Shown here: one piece after another, positions 26,340 to 46,015 of the stretch
Numbering within the stretch: the first letter of the stretch is position 1
How the letters are laid out: every line of letters begins with the position of its first letter
Assembly: GCA_017601395.1 (NCBI GenBank)
Contig: JAFNIQ010000009.1
Coordinates: 1-46,015 of the forward strand
Source: Candidatus Brockarchaeota archaeon
GTDB taxonomy: Archaea; Thermoproteota; EX4484-205; JAAOZP01
Length of the DNA stretch: 46,015 bases
Direction of reading: 5' to 3'
Notes under the pieces: model-generated
Told to the model about the DNA's origin: nothing
Databases searched by the model: none
Seen by the model: the letters and a program-made list of their open reading frames with translations, nothing else
Position numbers and translations under genes: made by a program

Positions 26340-26609
26340 GAAAATGAAACGACGAATAGCGAGTTTTTCGAAAAATTAAGAAGCTTTTTCAACGAGAGGT
26401 TTAATGATGAGATGAAGCATAAGCAATTTAAGATAGAAACATACCCAATGAAGAGAAAATGGGAAATATATTGTCAGGAGCCTATTAGTTGTAGATACAT
26501 CTGTGAATATAAGGATAGAAGGGTGCAGATAGGGACTCTATGTTTTGATGCTCCTGCGGTAAATCATTCCCATTATGTCTTAAAAACCCTGACTAGGCTA
26601 CCGCCTTAG
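26340..26609 (+). pseudogene. N-terminal remnant of the same unknown family (tandem copy 3)
   Basis: Frame reads EENETTNSEFFEKLRSFFNERFNDEMKHKQFKIETYPMKRKWEIYCQEP...RRVQIGTL; aligns by eye with copy 2 (SEKLRDILNEKYKNERWFKPFELDTNPVFKDEKWRIN...GRIGVST). Ends at the hdrA 3' end. Confidence 0.5.
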
Positions 26610-29028
26610 CCTCCTCAGCGCCCCAGCCCATCTCGCCACTCTTAAACTTCTGCAAATATTCATGCATTTTAATAATTGTATTTTGATAAACGTTCCCTTC
26701 AGCAGCAGAAACGTAGACGAACCATAAGCGGTCAGGATTAACCCCCATCTTACCAAGCTTCTTCTTCAAAGCCTCAACCCTCCTGCGAGCCCACTCATTG
26801 CCGCTGATGTAGTGACAGTCTGCAGGGTGACAAGGCGCGACGAGAACCATGCCCGCTCCCTTCTCGAAGGCCCTCAGGATCATCTTCTCACTCACTCTCC
26901 CTGAGCACATGACTCTGATTATCCTCACGCTTGAAGGATATTCAAGTCTAGACACTCCAGCGAAGTCCGATCCGGCATAACTACACCAATTACAGCAGAA
27001 ACTTATAATTTTTTCTTTGGGTTGTTCTTCCAAGGCTGCGTCGATTTGCGCAAATATTTGCTCGTCTGTAAAGTGGTGTTGGTTGAGCGCGTTGAAGGGG
27101 CAGCCTGCTGTGCATGTTCCGCATCCTGCGCACATTGATTGCGTGACCTGTATTATTTTTCTTCCTTCCGTCTCTATGGGTTTTAGGGCTTGGAAGGGGC
27201 ACATTTTTGTGCATGCTAGGCAGCCTTTGCATTTCAGCGGGTCGACGTAGCTTGTTATTGGCTCGAGCTCCATGAAGTCTTTCGAGAAGAGCATGAGTGT
27301 TTTTGAGGCTGCTGCATGCCCCCTGGCTATCGTCATCGGTATGTCCGTTGGGCCTGCGCATGAGCCCGCTAAGTATATGCCGTTTACAACTGTTTCAACG
27401 GGTTTGAGCTTGATGTGTGCCTCCATGAAGAACCCGTATTGGTCTCTTGGTACTCTGAGTATTTCGCCGAGCCTGTCTGTGCCTTCCGAGGGCTGCATGC
27501 CTGTTGCTAGGACTACGAGGTCGTATTGATCCTCTATTATTTCTCCGCTTAGAGTGTCTTCAACCCGTATCTTCAGCATTCCGTTTTCTTCCTCGACTCC
27601 GCTGGGTCTTCCCCTGATGAATCTTACTCCCTTTTCTCTCGCCATTCTGAATATTGTTTCATACTCTTTTCCACCTGCTCTGATGTCAATGTAGTAGACT
27701 GTTACCTCCATGCTAGGATTGTTCTTCTTAACGAGGAGCGCCTGCTTCAGGGTTATCATGCAGCATATTCTTGAGCAGTAGATGTTTGTCTGCTCGTCCC
27801 TACATCCTACGCATTGTATGAAGGCCGTTTTTCCAGCGGGTTTCCCGTCTGAGGGCCTGACCAGTCTTCCCCGCGTGGGGCCGTCGGGTGTGAGCATTCT
27901 CTCCAGCTCCATGCTTGACAGAACATTTCTAAGCCGGCTGTAGCCGTACTCTGGCTTCCTTAAGGGATTGAAAAGGTCGAAGCCGGTTGCGAGAATTATC
28001 GCACCAACCTTTAAGACTTCCTCCACGCCCGGTGCTTTAAGGTCTATTGCTTTAACTGGGCATGCTTCTACGCATTCGCCGCAGCCAGTGCAATTCTTCT
28101 CGTCTATTACTGCCGCTAAGGGTTTTCCGACAAGCCCGTGAACATGGAGGGTTTTCTCAAGGCCTTGATCGCAGGCAACAGTGCCCTGAGTCTTCTCAAC
28201 CAAGTATATCGCCCTCCTTTTTGAAAACCCGTGGGAAAACTCCTCTTCAACCTGGACTGGACACTTCTCAACGCATTTGCCGCAGCCCACACACTCCTCC
28301 GAAACCTTTGACGGTTTCCTTCTTAATGTTGCAATGAAGTTGCCAACGTAGCCCTCCACCGCGACGACCTCGGATTGTGTCAGCACTCTTATGCGGGGGT
28401 GTGTGAGAACCCTGTTGATCATCTCGTTAACAAGGCAGGCTGTGCAGTCCACCATGGGGAAAGTTTTGCCGAGAAGCCTTGCTTTACCGCCTAGAATAGC
28501 TTGTTTCTCAACAAGCACTACGCTGTAACCCGCGTCCGCAACGTCAAGCGCAGCCCTCATGCCCGCCAGCCCGCCGCCTATCACTAGCAGTGTTTTCTCC
28601 ACCGGGACGATTATCGGCTCAAGCGGCTCCAGGAGCCGGGCCTTGGCGACAGCCATCTTAACAAGGTCGATGGCCTTCCTAGTGGCGCCCTCAGGGTCAC
28701 TCATGTGTACCCAGGAGCAGTGCTCCCTTATGTTAGCCATCTCGAAAAGATACGGGTTTAAACCTGCTTCCGAGACGCATGCTCTGAACGTTGGCTCATG
28801 CATCTTCGGGCTGCAGGCTGCGACGACAACCCTGTTAAGCCCGTATTCTTTAATTATCCTCTTTATCTCAGCCTGGCCAGCATCCGAGCAGGTGTAAAGG
28901 TTGTGAGAAGAGTAGACGACGTTGGGAAGAGTCTTAGCATACTCGGCAACCTTGACGACGTCGACTGTGCCCGCGATGTTCTTGCCGCAGTGGCATACGA
29001 AGACACCTATCCTCGGCTCTCCGCTCAT
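26593..29028 (-). CDS. hdrA: heterodisulfide reductase subunit A-like protein with C-terminal MvhD-like domain
   Basis: 811 aa; GVFVCHCGKNI, FAD motif VIGGGLAGMRAALDVADAGYSVVLVEK, several CxxCxxCxxxCP ferredoxin motifs, C-terminal IISFCCNWCSYAGSDFAGVSRLEYPSSVRIIRVMCSGRV (MvhD-like). Confidence 0.93.
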   Translation of the reverse strand: MSGEPRIGVFVCHCGKNIAGTVDVVKVAEYAKTLPNVVYSSHNLYTCSDAGQAEIKRIIKEYGLNRVVVAACSPKMHEPTFRACVSEAGLNPYLFEMANIREHCSWVHMSDPEGATRKAIDLVKMAVAKARLLEPLEPIIVPVEKTLLVIGGGLAGMRAALDVADAGYSVVLVEKQAILGGKARLLGKTFPMVDCTACLVNEMINRVLTHPRIRVLTQSEVVAVEGYVGNFIATLRRKPSKVSEECVGCGKCVEKCPVQVEEEFSHGFSKRRAIYLVEKTQGTVACDQGLEKTLHVHGLVGKPLAAVIDEKNCTGCGECVEACPVKAIDLKAPGVEEVLKVGAIILATGFDLFNPLRKPEYGYSRLRNVLSSMELERMLTPDGPTRGRLVRPSDGKPAGKTAFIQCVGCRDEQTNIYCSRICCMITLKQALLVKKNNPSMEVTVYYIDIRAGGKEYETIFRMAREKGVRFIRGRPSGVEEENGMLKIRVEDTLSGEIIEDQYDLVVLATGMQPSEGTDRLGEILRVPRDQYGFFMEAHIKLKPVETVVNGIYLAGSCAGPTDIPMTIARGHAAASKTLMLFSKDFMELEPITSYVDPLKCKGCLACTKMCPFQALKPIETEGRKIIQVTQSMCAGCGTCTAGCPFNALNQHHFTDEQIFAQIDAALEEQPKEKIISFCCNWCSYAGSDFAGVSRLEYPSSVRIIRVMCSGRVSEKMILRAFEKGAGMVLVAPCHPADCHYISGNEWARRRVEALKKKLGKMGVNPDRLWFVYVSAAEGNVYQNTIIKMHEYLQKFKSGEMGWGAEEAKAVA

Positions 29029-35906: not shown

Positions 35907-36464
35907 ATGGAAGGATACGGTTTCGTGCCGAGGGAAGTGTTCTTCACTAAAGGAGTAGGCGTACACAGGGAGAGGCTCGCATCCTTCGAAATAGCTCTCA
36001 GGGACGCGGGCATAGCTCAGTTCAACCTTGTCCCGATCTCAAGCATCATACCGCCGGGATGCAGGGTTATAGGCAGAGAAGAGGGGTTGAGCAAGCTTAA
36101 GCCGGGGCAGATAATCTTCGTAGTGCTGGCTAAGAACGAGACTAACGAGCCTAACAGGCTCATAGCGGCTTCAATAGGCATGGCTAAGCCTCTTGACGAC
36201 GAGAGCTACGGCTATTTGAGCGAACACCATTCTTTCGGCCAGACTGAGAAGAAGGCTGGGGACTATGCTGAGGACCTTGCAGCATTCATGCTTGCCTCCA
36301 CGCTCGGGGTTCCGTTCGACATAGATAAGAGCTGGGATGAGCAGAAGGAGATATGGAAGATAAGCGGCCGCAGGGTTAGAACGATGAGCATAACCCAGTC
36401 CGCAGTTGGCAATAAGGACGGCATGTGGACAACCGTCGTGGCGGCAGCAGTATTCATACCTTAA
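35907..36464 (+). CDS. pdaD: pyruvoyl-dependent arginine decarboxylase
   Basis: 185 aa; FNLVPISSIIPPGCRVI (SS cleavage site), YGYLSEHHSFGQTEKKAGDYAEDLA. Confidence 0.93.
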   Translation: MEGYGFVPREVFFTKGVGVHRERLASFEIALRDAGIAQFNLVPISSIIPPGCRVIGREEGLSKLKPGQIIFVVLAKNETNEPNRLIAASIGMAKPLDDESYGYLSEHHSFGQTEKKAGDYAEDLAAFMLASTLGVPFDIDKSWDEQKEIWKISGRRVRTMSITQSAVGNKDGMWTTVVAAAVFIP

Positions 36465-36504
36465 GCTTTGAAGGTTTTCAACCCTCAGCCGCTGAAACCT
36501 TTGC

Positions 36505-37158
36505 TCAAGCCGATAAGGGGAGGAGGCTTCCGAAGAGGAGCGTAACCACGTAGCTGAGGAGAATGAAAAGTGCCATTGGAACAGTCTGTTTGACTGAGAC
36601 TACTCCGCATCCACCGCTGCCGGCGGCACACTCTTCTGAGGCTTCACCCCGGCTTACTGTCTTAAGCAGCGCGCATACAAACCTTTTTCGAAAAGGCTCA
36701 GCCTTAGGAAGGTTTCTACAGCCCCCTGAGTGCAGGTTGCGGAGAAGGTTTAAAGCAACCGCCGTCAACGACAGTAATTCGGCGTTTAAAAGAACCGTCA
36801 GGCTGAAATCCGGGTAGAAAAGCTTCAGGAAGCACCCCTGGAGGAGAGGCCTAGCTGTTGAAACATGGGTTAGGCATACGCCTACCATTATCAAGGCGTC
36901 TCCCGGCCCGTAGAGGCGTAGGAGGAGCAGCAAGCCCAGCAGGCTGAGTGTTTGAACCAGCTTGAAAAAGGTTTCTAGAAGCACGCTGGAAGCCAGCTCC
37001 AGGGCGAGGGCTGAGACCCCCAGCAGGAGGATTGGAAGCCATGCTGAAACGTCAAGCTCCCTCTTCTCCAGGTCCTGGAGGGCAGCTTGGGAGAGCAGGA
37101 TTACTGGGAAAAGCGTCTTAAAACATGAGAATGCCTGTAGACACTGGCTTAAATCCAT
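36505..37158 (-). CDS. A24-type (prepilin/preflagellin) peptidase-like membrane protein
   Basis: 217 aa; SQAALQDLEKRELDVSAWLP (D...R) and YGPGDALIMVGV (GxGD) with multiple TM segments. Confidence 0.65.
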   Translation of the reverse strand: MDLSQCLQAFSCFKTLFPVILLSQAALQDLEKRELDVSAWLPILLLGVSALALELASSVLLETFFKLVQTLSLLGLLLLLRLYGPGDALIMVGVCLTHVSTARPLLQGCFLKLFYPDFSLTVLLNAELLSLTAVALNLLRNLHSGGCRNLPKAEPFRKRFVCALLKTVSRGEASEECAAGSGGCGVVSVKQTVPMALFILLSYVVTLLFGSLLPLSA

Positions 37159-38132
37159 GTTTCACCCATTTAAACAATGCTCAAGGGTTTTTAAGCCGCC
37201 ACACGGAAGGGAACCTTTATCTGTTTCAAAAAGCTCTGCAACCAGGCTTGGACGAGGCTAGGCTATACCTGGTTGAAAACCCGTATTTCTTCTCCGGGAT
37301 CAGGCGCAGCTACGAGGAGTCATGGTTCGCGGTCGTGGGAGTACCCTTCGACGGGACGACGAGCTTCAGACCCGGCTCGAGGTTCGGGCCCGCCAGCATA
37401 AGGCATTTCTCAGCCGAGGTTGAAACCATAAGCCTTGGAAGCGGTGTCAACCTCGAGGACGTTAAGGTTTCAGACCTGGGGGATGTTTCAGTGACGTTCA
37501 ACGTTGACGAGGTTTTGAAAAGGGTTGAGAAAGTATGCAGGGAGATCCATGCGGATTCCAAGATCCCCGTAATACTTGGAGGGGAGCACACGGTAACCCT
37601 GGGGGCTGCGAGAGGCCTTAGGCCGGAGACGATAGTCTCCTTCGACGCTCATTTCGACTACAGGGACGAGTATCCCGAGGGCGTCAGGATTAGCCACGCG
37701 ACAGTAATGAGGAGGATAAGGGAGGAGGCTTGCAGGGTTGTGCACGTGGGCGTCAGGGCGGCGTGCAGGGAGGAGGTTGAGTATGCGAGCAGCGAAGCCT
37801 TCTTTTCATCGAGGCAAGTACTAAGGAATCCTGAGGAAGCATGCGTGGGGCTGAGGAGTATTGTTGATAAGGCTGGAAGCATTTATGTTAGCATAGACCT
37901 TGACGTCCTAGACCCCGCCTACGCGCCTGGGGTGGCTAATCCGGAGGCCTGCGGAATGCCGACGAACATCCTGCTCGACCTTCTGGAGAACACTGTAAGC
38001 GAGAAACTAGTTGGGCTCGACCTTGTTGAGCTTAACCCGCTGCTCGACCCCGGAGGCGCCTCGGCTGCAGCGGCGGCGAGAATACTGTTCGAGGCTCTTT
38101 CGAACACGGCTAGGAGAAAGAGGCTTGTCTAA
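37125..38132 (+). CDS. speB: agmatinase / arginase family ureohydrolase
   Basis: VVGVPFDGTTSFRPGSRFGPASIR, GGEHTVTLG, SFDAHFDYRDEY, SIDLDVLDPAYAPGVANPE. True start probably downstream, near LDEARLYLVENPYFFSG. Confidence 0.93.
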   Translation: MRMPVDTGLNPCFTHLNNAQGFLSRHTEGNLYLFQKALQPGLDEARLYLVENPYFFSGIRRSYEESWFAVVGVPFDGTTSFRPGSRFGPASIRHFSAEVETISLGSGVNLEDVKVSDLGDVSVTFNVDEVLKRVEKVCREIHADSKIPVILGGEHTVTLGAARGLRPETIVSFDAHFDYRDEYPEGVRISHATVMRRIREEACRVVHVGVRAACREEVEYASSEAFFSSRQVLRNPEEACVGLRSIVDKAGSIYVSIDLDVLDPAYAPGVANPEACGMPTNILLDLLENTVSEKLVGLDLVELNPLLDPGGASAAAAARILFEALSNTARRKRLV

Positions 38133-38734
38133 ACCTGTTTCCTCTGAATATACCAGCGTTCAGCCCCGTCCCTAACCCTCTTGTCAGCCTCTTCGACGGT
38201 TGAGGGTGGTGGAATAATCATCGGCTCACCCGGCTCCCAGTTCGCAGGAGCCAAGAGGCCTGATTTAACAGAGGTTTGAACAGCCCTAGTAACCCTAGCG
38301 AGCTCCTTCACGTTCCTCCCGATTTCAACAGGATACTGGGCTGTGAACCTCAAAACCCCCTCCGGGTCTATGAGGAAAACGCTTCTCGCAACGCTTCCCC
38401 TAGCGTCCGCAGCACCGTAGAGGCCCACCGTCCTCTTATCCGGGTCGGCTGCAACAGGGAACATTATTTTCAACCCGTATTTCTCCTCAACATCCCTAAC
38501 CCAAGATATTACGCTCATAAGGCTCTCGGGGCATATCGAGAAAACCTCGACCCCGCTCTTCCTGAAGTCGTCAATCCTCTGGGACAGGGCGATCATCTCA
38601 GTCGTGCAGACAGGGTTGAAGCTCGAGGGATGTGTTAGGAGAAGAACCCATCTGCCCCTGAGCTCTGAAAGCCTGATCCTGCCCCTTGTGGTTTGAACCT
38701 CGAAGTCAGGAGCCTGCTCACCGACCAGAACCAT
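38129..38734 (-). CDS. peroxiredoxin (Prx6-like)
   Basis: 201 aa; LLTHPSSFNPVCTTEMIALSQRIDDF, C-terminal NWEPGEPMIIPPPST. Confidence 0.93.
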   Translation of the reverse strand: MVLVGEQAPDFEVQTTRGRIRLSELRGRWVLLLTHPSSFNPVCTTEMIALSQRIDDFRKSGVEVFSICPESLMSVISWVRDVEEKYGLKIMFPVAADPDKRTVGLYGAADARGSVARSVFLIDPEGVLRFTAQYPVEIGRNVKELARVTRAVQTSVKSGLLAPANWEPGEPMIIPPPSTVEEADKRVRDGAERWYIQRKQV

Positions 38735-38908: not shown

Positions 38909-41314
38909 CTACTCGAGAAAACCCTCATACGCCTTTTTATATGTCTCTCCGGATGCGAGCTTCCTAACGTCCCTCTTATACTTAGCCTTATCACCAACGG
39001 TCCCGGGCTTAAGTTTGTTCCACTCCTCAAGGCTCACCGAGAACTCCTTCTGAACATTATCCCTGTAGAGCTCCGGGAGAACGTTGAACGTGCAGAACGG
39101 AACGACGTTCATGTCTGGGGTAACGTAGTGAACACCGCAACGCATAACCCTCTCAACATCATAATTATATGGATCCATAAAATGCATCATACCTAAATAA
39201 TTAAATTTATAATGAAATATACTTAACGCGCCGTAGCTTCTTCTGAGGATTATGTTGGTCAGTATTTTTCCTAGGTTGAGGTCCTTGGGTTGTTTCTCCT
39301 TATCTATGAAGCGGCCGAGTCTACGGACTAGTTCAAGCATCACCATGTACCTGCTTCTCCCCTTCTCCATCTCAACGGTCTTCTCCCTCAAGTATTCCGA
39401 GAGGCCCTCTACGTCGACGAAGCTCGTTATCGGCATGAAGTGGATTCCGTCTTTAGACCTGTCGAGATAAACGTAGGTCGCCATTCCGCAGGCAGGGTGA
39501 ATAGGCATGTGCCACCTCTCCTTCCCAGCGGTCAGCTTCTCTAAAAACGTTGTCAACACGAGTGTGAACGGAACAGGGTACCAGGCTTCTCTACCTATCT
39601 CCCCGTTCGTCTGCTCCTCCAGGAGCCTTATCACATCAGGGATGGTTATCCTATGCTTATCCCTCTCGCTCCTAGGCATCTGGCCTACCAACGAGACGGG
39701 TTGAAAGTTAACACCCCTAACTATATCGCTGTTAACGGCGGCGAACCTCACTATCTTTCCAAGCTCATGAGTGTTCCAGCCGTTTATCACCGTGGGGACG
39801 AGGACGACGCTGGTCATACCGGCCTTACGGAAGTTTTCGAAAATATACGGGATCTCCCAATGGTTCTTCACGTTTATCCTCGGGTCGAGCCCGTCGAAGC
39901 TCAGGTAGACCGTGTTAACCCCTGCTTGCCTAAGCCTCCTGGCGAGCTCGACACCGCCTTCAAGCGCGAAGAAAACACCGTGAGTATTGAGTTGAATATG
40001 GGTGAAGCCCTCCTCCCTCGTTATCCTTATGACGTCGGCAAGGTCGTCCCTCATCAAAGGCTCGCCGCCCGTGAGCTGAATAGCCTTAGCACCGTAAGGA
40101 TACTGCTTCCTCAAATGCTTCATCATCATCCTGTACTGCTCCAGCGTCGGCTCATACACGTAGCCAGACCTCTCGGCGAAGAAGAAGCAGTTGCTAAGCA
40201 GAAAACCGTCTGACGCTACGAATGAATGGCCCTCGTTCTCAACCTCTAAATCATAAACGTAGCCAGCGTAGTGCTCTTCTTCTATAGACTCCACCTTATC
40301 TAGGTAAAAGTCTCCAAGCCTCACTACCTTAGCCTCCTTCCTTTCACCAATATCGACAAGCTTCGCTAAATGGCTCTTCCTGAGCTTAAGCAACCCGTAT
40401 TTCCTCCTCAACAGGAGGACATTGATGTCCTCCACGCTTCTGACGTAGACTTTCTCCTTGTCTTCCCCCGGAAGTGTTTTAAACCCTTCTAAGAGGTTGG
40501 TCTCTCCGAGGCTGCTGATGGCGTTGAAATTCCAGAGTAAGATGAGCTCGCTTCCCCCATCAAGCTGATCAGCTCGCTTTTTGTTTATTTCTCCGTTCTC
40601 ATTAACGAAAAACATGTGTTCCGGCGTCACCCTGACTTCACGCCCTGTCCGCGACCTAATCCTCAAAATCTTTCCCTCATATCTTCTTCTGAATATTTTT
40701 GTAACCCTGGTCCATTCAGCCTTACCCTCATTAAACGTTAGAACGTTCAGATTTTCGGGAACAGCGTATTCACCGGAGAAGCCTTCCATCTCAGCTTTAT
40801 GGTTGAAGACAAGGTTCTTCGAAGCCTCCTCAAAGCTTTCTAACAAAATTTCTTCACCGGTCTTAAAAAGAACCCTCTCGTCTCCCGGTAGGCAGTACCA
40901 GCATGAGAAGTTACACCTGTTCGTCACGACAACGTTGGCAAGAGCCGTCTGAGTAGTGTGGACTGAGCATATGCCGCATGAGAACGGGCAGGGGTTTTCA
41001 AGCTGCTTGTAAGCATACTTAACCTTTGCCCGAGGAGCCTCATACCTCATCGCCCTCCTGTACATCGCGGCATCACCCCAGTAAAGGTCCTCGACCTCAC
41101 CGTGCTCCGGGCACTTCTTCCTAATCCAGATTTTACCATCCTTCTCGTAGACAAGCGCGGGGAGAAGCCTGTAGCACTCTGGGCAGACTGAAAGCGTGTT
41201 TTTAACGTGCTCCTCACCCTCCTTTAGAACGGGCTTCGGACCGCCTGCGAGTATCCTGCGGCCAGCCACCTGTATCATTCTCTCTTTAAGCTCCTCAGCA
41301 TCCTGCTGAACCAT
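38909..41314 (-). CDS. Tes-like (tetraether-synthase type) radical SAM protein containing an intein
   Basis: 801 aa. Extein N-terminal Cys motifs (CPECYRLLPA, CPEHGEVEDLYWGD, NPCPFSCGICSVH), then NVVVTNRCNFSCWY[intein]CFFFAERSGYVYEPTLEQYRMMMKHLRKQYPYGAKAIQLTGGEPLMRDDL. Confidence 0.88.
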   Translation of the reverse strand: MVQQDAEELKERMIQVAGRRILAGGPKPVLKEGEEHVKNTLSVCPECYRLLPALVYEKDGKIWIRKKCPEHGEVEDLYWGDAAMYRRAMRYEAPRAKVKYAYKQLENPCPFSCGICSVHTTQTALANVVVTNRCNFSCWYCLPGDERVLFKTGEEILLESFEEASKNLVFNHKAEMEGFSGEYAVPENLNVLTFNEGKAEWTRVTKIFRRRYEGKILRIRSRTGREVRVTPEHMFFVNENGEINKKRADQLDGGSELILLWNFNAISSLGETNLLEGFKTLPGEDKEKVYVRSVEDINVLLLRRKYGLLKLRKSHLAKLVDIGERKEAKVVRLGDFYLDKVESIEEEHYAGYVYDLEVENEGHSFVASDGFLLSNCFFFAERSGYVYEPTLEQYRMMMKHLRKQYPYGAKAIQLTGGEPLMRDDLADVIRITREEGFTHIQLNTHGVFFALEGGVELARRLRQAGVNTVYLSFDGLDPRINVKNHWEIPYIFENFRKAGMTSVVLVPTVINGWNTHELGKIVRFAAVNSDIVRGVNFQPVSLVGQMPRSERDKHRITIPDVIRLLEEQTNGEIGREAWYPVPFTLVLTTFLEKLTAGKERWHMPIHPACGMATYVYLDRSKDGIHFMPITSFVDVEGLSEYLREKTVEMEKGRSRYMVMLELVRRLGRFIDKEKQPKDLNLGKILTNIILRRSYGALSIFHYKFNYLGMMHFMDPYNYDVERVMRCGVHYVTPDMNVVPFCTFNVLPELYRDNVQKEFSVSLEEWNKLKPGTVGDKAKYKRDVRKLASGETYKKAYEGFLE
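40190..40894 (-). other. intein (about 235 aa, no obvious LAGLIDADG endonuclease) within the radical SAM gene
   Basis: Residues 141-375: block A CLPGDERVLFKTGEEI, block B GREVRVTPEHMFFVNENG, block F YAGYVYDLEVENEGHSFVAS, block G DGFLLSN followed by Cys. Codon coordinates checked at both ends. Confidence 0.9.
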
Positions 41315-43480: not shown

Positions 43481-46015
43481 TCACCTTAGTCTTGAAAGCA
43501 CCTCAGCCCTCTTAACGTGGAACTCGGTCACAACCCTGGCAACATCCCTGAAGTGGGTCACATTATTATCCATCATCCATCTTATGACGCTCTCCCTCAC
43601 CTGCAGCTCCCTTATGTACCAGTCTGGAGGCATGCCTATCTTCCTGCACACGTTGGGGAGGTGCACAGACCTGCTGAAGTCAACATCGTGGAAATCCTCC
43701 ATCGGGTCCCAGTGTGAAATCGTAATCCTGTTGCCCTCGGGGTCAAGCTCCCAAACGTGTCTAACCCTTCTCCCGAAGGGTACTCCAGCCTTCTTGGGTA
43801 GGACAACCCTCTCAACCAAGCATGCTACGTTCATAAGCGGAATATAGGATTCGGCGATGTTCATAGGCGGGCTCGTCATCCTCTTAATAGCGTAGTCAAT
43901 GTTCTCAGCGTGAACAGTGCTGAGACCACCGTGGCCAGTGTTGTGCAGGAGAACGGGTACCCCGCCTCCTAGGAAGGACTCCGTCCCAGGGACGGAAAGA
44001 TCATAGACATAACCCTTATAGTTTCTCCGTCGTATGCTCTTTACCTTCACGACGGCGAGCTGACCCTCAATCAGCTTCTCCAGCATCCTTAAGTACTTGA
44101 GTGCTTCAGGAGTCAGGCGACCCTTCGCCCTAACCCACTCCAGTATCTCCAGCGCCTTTCTCCTCGTTACGAATTCCCTTTTCCTGACGTATGTTAGCCT
44201 GAACGGCATCGATGTTGGCTTCGCGATTCCAATCAGCTTCAAGAGGGGTTTCACGGGAATCCTCTCAGCCGGGTTCGGCTTCCTATACCTGTGATCAAGG
44301 TAGACGATCACGTTCCAATATGTCCTGCCAGAGTTCCTACCCGTACCGCGTTCGCACCGTAGGCTCGAGTAGAAGCCGGCCAGCCTGGCGAGCCACGTAA
44401 GCTGGTATGCTAGCCACTCGTTAGCCGTCGAATACTGGATTCCACGTTTCCTAACGGTTCTCCGGGCTTCTGCACGCAGCCCTTCGAAGAACGCTCGCAC
44501 AACACTGCTTGGAGAAGACCAGAGCTGCGAAGGGATTCGTTTCTCCCTTAAGCGTGCCCCCAGCAGCTTTTCAAACAGCTCCGCGAGAAGCGTGTGGTTA
44601 AACTCGTAGATAAGGTGTTTTCCACGGTCGTCTACCGAGGGTTTGACGCCGAACCTCTCAGCCAGGGTCTCCACAACCCTGTTAGCCATATCTGCTTCAC
44701 CCTTGCCGAACGTGAAGCATAGTCTCTTACCCCTGCCCCGCTTAACACATCCTTCAGCCACGTAGGCGCCGAACACGAATGCCAGGTTCTCGTCGACACG
44801 AACCAGAGCGGGCAGTGCATGCCCGTGTGGACGATGCAAGACGACTCTTTCCAGCTCCTCTTCCTCAGCGTCCAGCCTGGCGAGAACGCTTAGCAGCACA
44901 GGGTTCCTTCCTCCAGTAAGCTGCTTCAGGCCTGCCGGCAGGTTGTCGGCGTAAACGTCTTCAATCCCGCTGAGCATCTCAACCCCGTTGATGACGCGAT
45001 AATCGTCCCCACCTCCCCCCGTGAACGTAACCAGGTAATCCCCAGGCTTAAGCCGTTCAACAGGCTCCTCCCTAACATCGAGAGTCTCAGGGTCAAGGGT
45101 GAAGACGCTGTGGCTGCCGGTGGCCAGCAGTCTCCCGCCGCTTTCATACTTAACCTCGTAAACCTCCCCGGCACTGTGCCTCAGCACGTATCGCACCGGT
45201 TTCCAGACCGGTTTGAAACCAGCGTGGGAAAGCACCCAGTATCCTTCAACATGCTTCGGGATCCGCTCCTCCCCTTCCTCGTAAAACCCGTCTACGAAAT
45301 CACCCACTCTGACCAGGGACACACGTCCCTCCCTATTCTTAACAAGGACCGGGGTGTCGCGCGAAACGCTGGCCATGGCTTGGAAAAGCACGAATGCTTC
45401 GGCACCCCTTATCTCTCCGACGATCAGGTAGTCAGGCCTATACCTTAGAGAAGTCTTGACGAGGTCGAACATTGTTATCTCGCCTATCTTGGAGGTTCCA
45501 AGACCATAGCTCTCCCTTGTTACGAACTGGACCCAGTTGTCGTGCGGAATGTTCAGCTCAGCCGTCTCCTCAACCGTGACGATCTTAAGACCAGGCTTGA
45601 AAAGATTGGTTAAAGCGTTCAGGAAGGAGGTTTTACCCGCGCCCGTTCCACCTATGACCATGACGGTCAGCCTGTTGTCGAGGATGAACCAGAAGTAGGC
45701 TGCGAGAGACGGGCTTATCGTGCCCAGCTTAATAAGGTCGATGATGCTGAAAGGCTCCTCCCTGAACTTCCTTATGGTGAAGGTTGAGCCGAAGGTTGAA
45801 ACCTCGTCCCCGTAGGTTGCTGCAAGCCTATGCCTGCCTGGGAGCATCGCGTCGACAATCGGGAAGGCTGCGCTAATATGCTTCCCGGCGAAGTGCGCGA
45901 GCTTAATTATGAAGTCGTTGAAATAACCCTTGTCCGCGATCCTCAGGTTCGAAGGGAGGCTCTCATACCTCCTGTGCCAGACGTAGACAGGCTTGTCGAT
46001 GCCGTCGCATGAAAT
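43481..46015 (-). CDS. type II/IV (FlaI/GspE-like) secretion ATPase containing an intein; N-terminus beyond the window edge
   Basis: MVIGGTGAGKTSFLNALTNLF, VTVEETAELNIPHDNWVQF, LIVGEIRGAEAFVLFQAMA[intein]TGHGGLSTVHAENIDYAIKRM. The frame stays open upstream of 45847 to the window edge (ISCDGIDKPVYVWHRRYESLPSNLRIADKGYFNDFIIKLAHFAGKHISAAFPIVDA). Confidence 0.93.
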   Translation of the reverse strand: MSCDGIDKPVYVWHRRYESLPSNLRIADKGYFNDFIIKLAHFAGKHISAAFPIVDAMLPGRHRLAATYGDEVSTFGSTFTIRKFREEPFSIIDLIKLGTISPSLAAYFWFILDNRLTVMVIGGTGAGKTSFLNALTNLFKPGLKIVTVEETAELNIPHDNWVQFVTRESYGLGTSKIGEITMFDLVKTSLRYRPDYLIVGEIRGAEAFVLFQAMASVSRDTPVLVKNREGRVSLVRVGDFVDGFYEEGEERIPKHVEGYWVLSHAGFKPVWKPVRYVLRHSAGEVYEVKYESGGRLLATGSHSVFTLDPETLDVREEPVERLKPGDYLVTFTGGGGDDYRVINGVEMLSGIEDVYADNLPAGLKQLTGGRNPVLLSVLARLDAEEEELERVVLHRPHGHALPALVRVDENLAFVFGAYVAEGCVKRGRGKRLCFTFGKGEADMANRVVETLAERFGVKPSVDDRGKHLIYEFNHTLLAELFEKLLGARLREKRIPSQLWSSPSSVVRAFFEGLRAEARRTVRKRGIQYSTANEWLAYQLTWLARLAGFYSSLRCERGTGRNSGRTYWNVIVYLDHRYRKPNPAERIPVKPLLKLIGIAKPTSMPFRLTYVRKREFVTRRKALEILEWVRAKGRLTPEALKYLRMLEKLIEGQLAVVKVKSIRRRNYKGYVYDLSVPGTESFLGGGVPVLLHNTGHGGLSTVHAENIDYAIKRMTSPPMNIAESYIPLMNVACLVERVVLPKKAGVPFGRRVRHVWELDPEGNRITISHWDPMEDFHDVDFSRSVHLPNVCRKIGMPPDWYIRELQVRESVIRWMMDNNVTHFRDVARVVTEFHVKRAEVLSRLR
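43940..45370 (-). mobile_element. intein (477 aa) with LAGLIDADG-type homing endonuclease in the secretion ATPase
   Basis: Block A SVSRDTPVLVKNREG, block B ATGSHSVFTLDPETL, LAGLIDADG-like LAFVFGAYVAEGCV and VVRAFFEGLRAEAR, block F YKGYVYDLSVPGTESFL, block G GGVPVLLHN followed by Thr. Codon coordinates checked at the C-terminal end. Confidence 0.92.

Follow-up and report, generated by a model that had tools for sequence, protein, structure and literature searches.

An endonuclease-less mini-intein at the third cluster cysteine of a putative tetraether lipid synthase from a Brockarchaeota-type archaeon

The interrupted tes gene

The window, by which we mean the whole 46,015-nucleotide stretch of DNA analysed here, carries on its reverse strand a gene for a putative tetraether lipid synthase (Tes), predicted to join two phytanyl chains to GDGT, and within this gene lies an in-frame intein. 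The features of the locus are as follows.

38909..41314 (including the stop codon), minus strand: tes, encoding a precursor of 801 aa (566 aa extein plus 235 aa intein), assigned from NF045702 and 7TOL
40895..41314, minus strand: N-extein, 140 residues, with C-terminal end CNFSCWY; rubredoxin and N-terminal cluster ligands present
40190..40894, minus strand: mini-intein, 235 aa, precursor residues 141-375, assigned from PF14890, TIGR01445, TIGR01443 and the predicted fold
40328..40525, minus strand: mini-intein linker (~65 residues, from about 124 to 189), of low model confidence; scar of the lost endonuclease domain
38912..40189, minus strand: C-extein, 426 residues counted from Cys+1, the third Cys of CX3CX2C; includes M710

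In a profile search the extein scores 676 bits against the Tes equivalog NF045702 (equivalog cut-off 450 bits), and it aligns with the crystallised M. jannaschii enzyme MJ0619 (7TOL) with an E value of 8.5e-136, bearing out the Tes-like host that had been proposed in an initial annotation of this DNA. The metal-ligand pattern of Tes/MJ0619, with Cys102 and Cys105 named, is given in PMC9433317. Ligands of the rubredoxin site (C44, C47, C68, H71) and of the N-terminal cluster (C109, C113, C116, H119) all lie in the N-extein, those of the SAM cluster are C134 and C138 and then C376, and M710 of the C-extein matches the labile Met439 ligand of MJ0619; every one of these residues is invariant in the six precursors that were aligned. 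In the 7TOL chain the residue opposite C376 is number 125, which can be read as Cys105 of MJ0619 on the assumption that 7TOL carries 20 tag residues, a reading that fits the Cys102/Cys105 naming. The initial annotation had placed the insertion right before the third Cys of the radical SAM motif, and this placement holds, with Cys+1 as the Cys105 equivalent.

The boundaries given there for the intein (40190-40894, minus strand) prove exact to the base. Its translation of 235 aa starts CLPGDERVLF and ends GFLLSN, flanked by CNFSCWY before and CFFFAERSG after; PF14890 (Intein_splicing) matches the insert with an E value of 1.3e-20, the intein N-terminal motif TIGR01445 matches from intein residue 1 (E 1.3e-15), and the match to TIGR01443 stops at residue 235. 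As in class 1 inteins there is a Cys at position 1 and a terminal Asn, N235, that is followed by Cys at +1. Block B reads TPEH (TxxH), with T90 and H93 invariant among six aligned inteins, block F contributes D215 and H223, and the catalytic residues are unchanged across the same six. The penultimate residue is S234, as had been noticed earlier, in place of the usual, non-obligatory His, and this is tolerable for class 1 membership since ~5% of functional inteins differ at that position (PMC4031507).

An AlphaFold model of the intein (six sequences) has a mean pLDDT of 70, with two confident halves joined by the low-confidence linker. The modelled fold is of the HINT type, and the top PDB match in a Foldseek search is the Pho RadA intein (E 4.6e-11), with the Mvu TFIIB intein next to it among the best matches (E 3.8e-10) and the DnaE redox-trap structure 3NZM also among the matches. 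No LAGLIDADG match was found within the mini-intein in a Pfam search.

Empty, full-length and mini alleles

The tes locus was compared with seven other genomes of the genus (G031, G070, G006, G047, G015, G063 and G077). Two of these, G031 and G070, carry an uninterrupted tes (L028 and L029) with the same flanks, reading CNFSCWYCFFFAE(R/K)SG, and the presence of an empty site in two genomes of the same genus is decisive in establishing that the insert is an intein and not a native part of the enzyme. A mini-intein 90% identical to that of the window is found at the same place in G006, and in G047, a Brockarchaeota MAG, the same site holds a 453-aa intein with two LAGLIDADG-like segments (LIGYFISDG and LLSGLFNGDG). 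When aligned with the G047 allele the window intein is short of a single block of 218 residues, in frame, between RRKYG and LLKLR; this deletion accounts for the absence of an endonuclease, on which the initial annotation was also correct. G015 has an intein-free Tes of another branch (L044, of the CFAYAG type) and nothing that matches the window's type, a difference which suggests that tes was replaced between lineages. No Tes was found in G063 or G077, both of which are ~70% complete. A 2826-codon frame in G015 holds a separate match to the Tes-intein profile (L069, G015:C7:313416-314483, E 9e-38); the radical SAM motif is absent from the stretch examined, and the match is probably an intein in another, very large protein.

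Across the phylum an intein of this kind is present in 8 of 400 genomes, always in Tes and always at the same Cys, and six of the eight are full length. Seven of these same-site inteins end in SN and the eighth in GN, so that the Ser before the last Asn is a family trait and not damage; the idea that the intein is damaged for want of a penultimate His is ruled out, given Ser or Gly in 8/8. A Tes tree of 28 rows, taking in 6 of the 8 carriers, needs at least 3 changes (gains or losses) of intein state, as expected for a mobile element. Within clades the inteins are less alike than the exteins, with identities of 69% against 93% between the window and G047 and of 54% against 82% between G204 and G273.

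Between the window and G047 dN/dS is 0.13 in the splicing domain and 0.07 in the exteins, values that place the splicing domain under purifying selection over this longer time. Recent constraint on the mini-intein looks weaker, mostly in the linker, in the comparison of the window with G006, where dN/dS is 0.76 on small counts (33 changes, 9 synonymous and 24 non-synonymous) and the C-extein gives 0.04. For the pair window and G047 the intein dS of 1.36 exceeds the extein values of 0.41 and 0.58 (Fisher p 4e-7 on counts), suggesting that the split between the mini and full alleles is older than that between their host genes, or else that the two arrived separately. Plain vertical loss of the endonuclease after the split from G047 is doubtful for the same reason, and a mini-allele of greater age, or one exchanged from lineage to lineage, would fit better.

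The dS between the window and G006 (L053) is uneven along tes, 0.04-0.06 in the N-extein and intein and 0.19 in the C-extein (Fisher p 3e-5). Identities across the locus likewise form a mosaic, and both features suggest that the two species have recombined at tes. That only the mini-intein passed recently from one to the other is unsupported, the adjoining DNA being similarly mosaic and mostly 90-99% identical. Carriage on a plasmid was likewise considered and set aside, the single plasmid match being a distant one, to a Halorussus DEAD/DEAH helicase at 26% identity. Positions 36416-37215 are only 68-81% identical to G006 and lie between blocks of 93-99%; this stretch includes an ORF (36505-37158, minus strand) with no Pfam match.

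Two further observations concern other parts of the window. A second intein of ~477 aa with a LAGLIDADG_3 domain (43940-45370, minus strand) interrupts a FlaI/TadA-like secretion ATPase in the ORF 43481-45847 (open to 46015); it has Ser1, HN and Thr+1, and its site is empty in G047, G031 and G070 (FQAMA|TGHGG) and occupied in G006. At 26593-29028 (minus strand) lies an HdrA-like FAD/Fe-S oxidoreductase-like gene whose product has a C-terminal FlpD (methyl-viologen hydrogenase delta) domain.

Splicing and its possible regulation

We consider it very likely that the insert is a class 1 mini-intein, an endonuclease-less remnant in the Tes of a Brockarchaeota-type archaeon, that is predicted to splice and to restore the third cluster cysteine. 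Cys1 would form a thioester with Tyr-1, Cys+1 would then take over the N-extein, and with cyclisation of Asn235 the exteins would be ligated to CNFSCWYCFFFAE, identical to intein-free Tes, with Cys+1 now supplying the third ligand to the radical SAM [4Fe-4S] cluster; the predicted spliced peptide is CNFSCWYCFFFAER. The ancestral lineage probably had a homing endonuclease aimed at a highly conserved tes coding stretch, and the window allele has shed the endonuclease domain (218 residues) while staying in the gene. Homing endonucleases tend to settle in conserved coding sequence, and the site was presumably picked for its DNA conservation and not for regulation. The mini-intein would persist because tes is functional only when the intein splices. 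Loss of splicing should be costly, since there is only one Tes above the family cut-off in the window's genome (2.14 Mb, 156 contigs, 91% complete) and deletion of tes in Sulfolobus was unsuccessful (PMC8941075); a second Tes could be absent from such a draft and yet present in the organism. Judged from sequence, what we have is most likely a mobile-element remnant that persists and splices without regulation, and we infer that it does so constitutively.

The initial annotation went further, holding that the enzyme cannot form its SAM cluster until the intein is removed. This does not follow, for the precursor reads CNFSCWYC, with Cys1 of the intein in the place of the third Cys, and a CX3CX2C motif therefore exists before splicing as well. 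The unspliced precursor is nevertheless likely inactive because the enzyme barrel is interrupted by 235 residues.

The initial annotation also suggested that splicing could gate tetraether formation, possibly by redox or temperature. Nothing specific in the present data points to temperature control. The cysteines at this junction raise the question of whether splicing might be gated by redox state. On oxidation a disulfide between C138 (Cys-3) and C141 (Cys1) of the precursor would block the first step, so that the oxygen-labile Tes would be freed only under reducing conditions. A Cys at -3 is found in the window and in all eight same-site inteins, and an AhpC/TSA peroxiredoxin with a 1-Cys C-terminal domain is encoded just downstream of tes (38129-38734, minus strand). 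According to Callahan 2011, as related in PMC10663303 and PMC3922620, the same Cys-3/Cys1 bond forms in the P. abyssi MoaA intein and stops its splicing on oxidation, and the shared spacing makes redox gating testable here. However, intein-free Tes keeps Cys-3 without exception as well, this residue being simply the second ligand of the cluster, and the Cys cannot therefore be taken as a sign that a switch was selected; relatives in the same genus also live without the intein. We regard such gating as unlikely. Slightly less probable still is a variant that starts from Cys1 standing in for the third cluster Cys, whereby an iron-sulfur cluster, or a disulfide, might already be present in the precursor at C134, C138 and C141, and cluster state or oxygen would time the exit of the intein and in this way control tetraether lipids post-translationally.

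It might also be argued that the mini-intein now splices poorly, leaving the archaeon with hardly any active enzyme of this type, if any at all, given that the endonuclease and the penultimate His are both gone and that dN/dS between the two mini-inteins is high. The core catalytic residues are all kept, though, the frame is open in the window genome and in G006, a non-His penultimate residue is common to the full-length alleles, and the low dN/dS of the C-extein implies that the host protein is still used; decay of this sort seems to us very improbable. Finally, the suggestion that the 235 residues are a native Tes domain is refuted by the uninterrupted orthologs with identical flanks in G031 and G070, the very comparison with intein-free homologs that had been recommended at the outset, and by the intein families and HINT fold, and we give it practically no weight.

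Comparison with known systems

The arrangement was at first treated as new, but NCBIfam already includes a model, NF045703 ('Tes, intein-containing'), with the same host and insertion point, residue 1 of the window intein falling at profile position 156. The model covers a full-length intein (~455 aa, as inferred from aligned positions), whereas the window has the 235-aa mini-intein; the full-length relatives align to it extein-intein-extein in one stretch. The window precursor scores 918 bits and the full-length relatives 613-1327 bits, all under the curated cut-off of 1700 bits of what is a narrow exception model. Neither inteins in Tes nor Cys-3 inteins sensitive to redox are therefore without precedent: annotators know the Tes site, and redox control has been published for an intein whose host carries a radical SAM annotation. 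In a literature search pairing 'intein' with 'tetraether' we found no paper on an intein in Tes, and in the literature searched we found no earlier description of the mini-intein form or of the empty, full and mini set in one genus.

An empty gene, a full-length intein and a mini-intein in a single genus make up a compact natural test set that bears on endonuclease loss and on the persistence of inteins at catalytic metal sites. Were splicing found to respond to redox conditions or to the state of the cluster, the intein would act after translation as a switch of membrane-lipid type, with a bearing on GDGT climate proxies.

Among characterised proteins, MJ0619/GDGT-MAS (7TOL) is homologous to the window extein, and the two share Met439 along with all three sets of metal ligands (rubredoxin, N-terminal cluster, radical SAM); MJ0619 is intein-free and of CFANA-type sequence, whereas the window extein falls in the branch of CFFYAE type. 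The P. abyssi MoaA intein is like that of the window in having a Cys at -3 of Cys1 and a host annotated as radical SAM; the literature calls that host MoaA. The archaeal mini-inteins of Pho RadA and Mvu TFIIB share with the window intein a HINT fold free of endonuclease, while the window intein differs from both in its host and site, in a linker of ~65 residues and in having no penultimate His.
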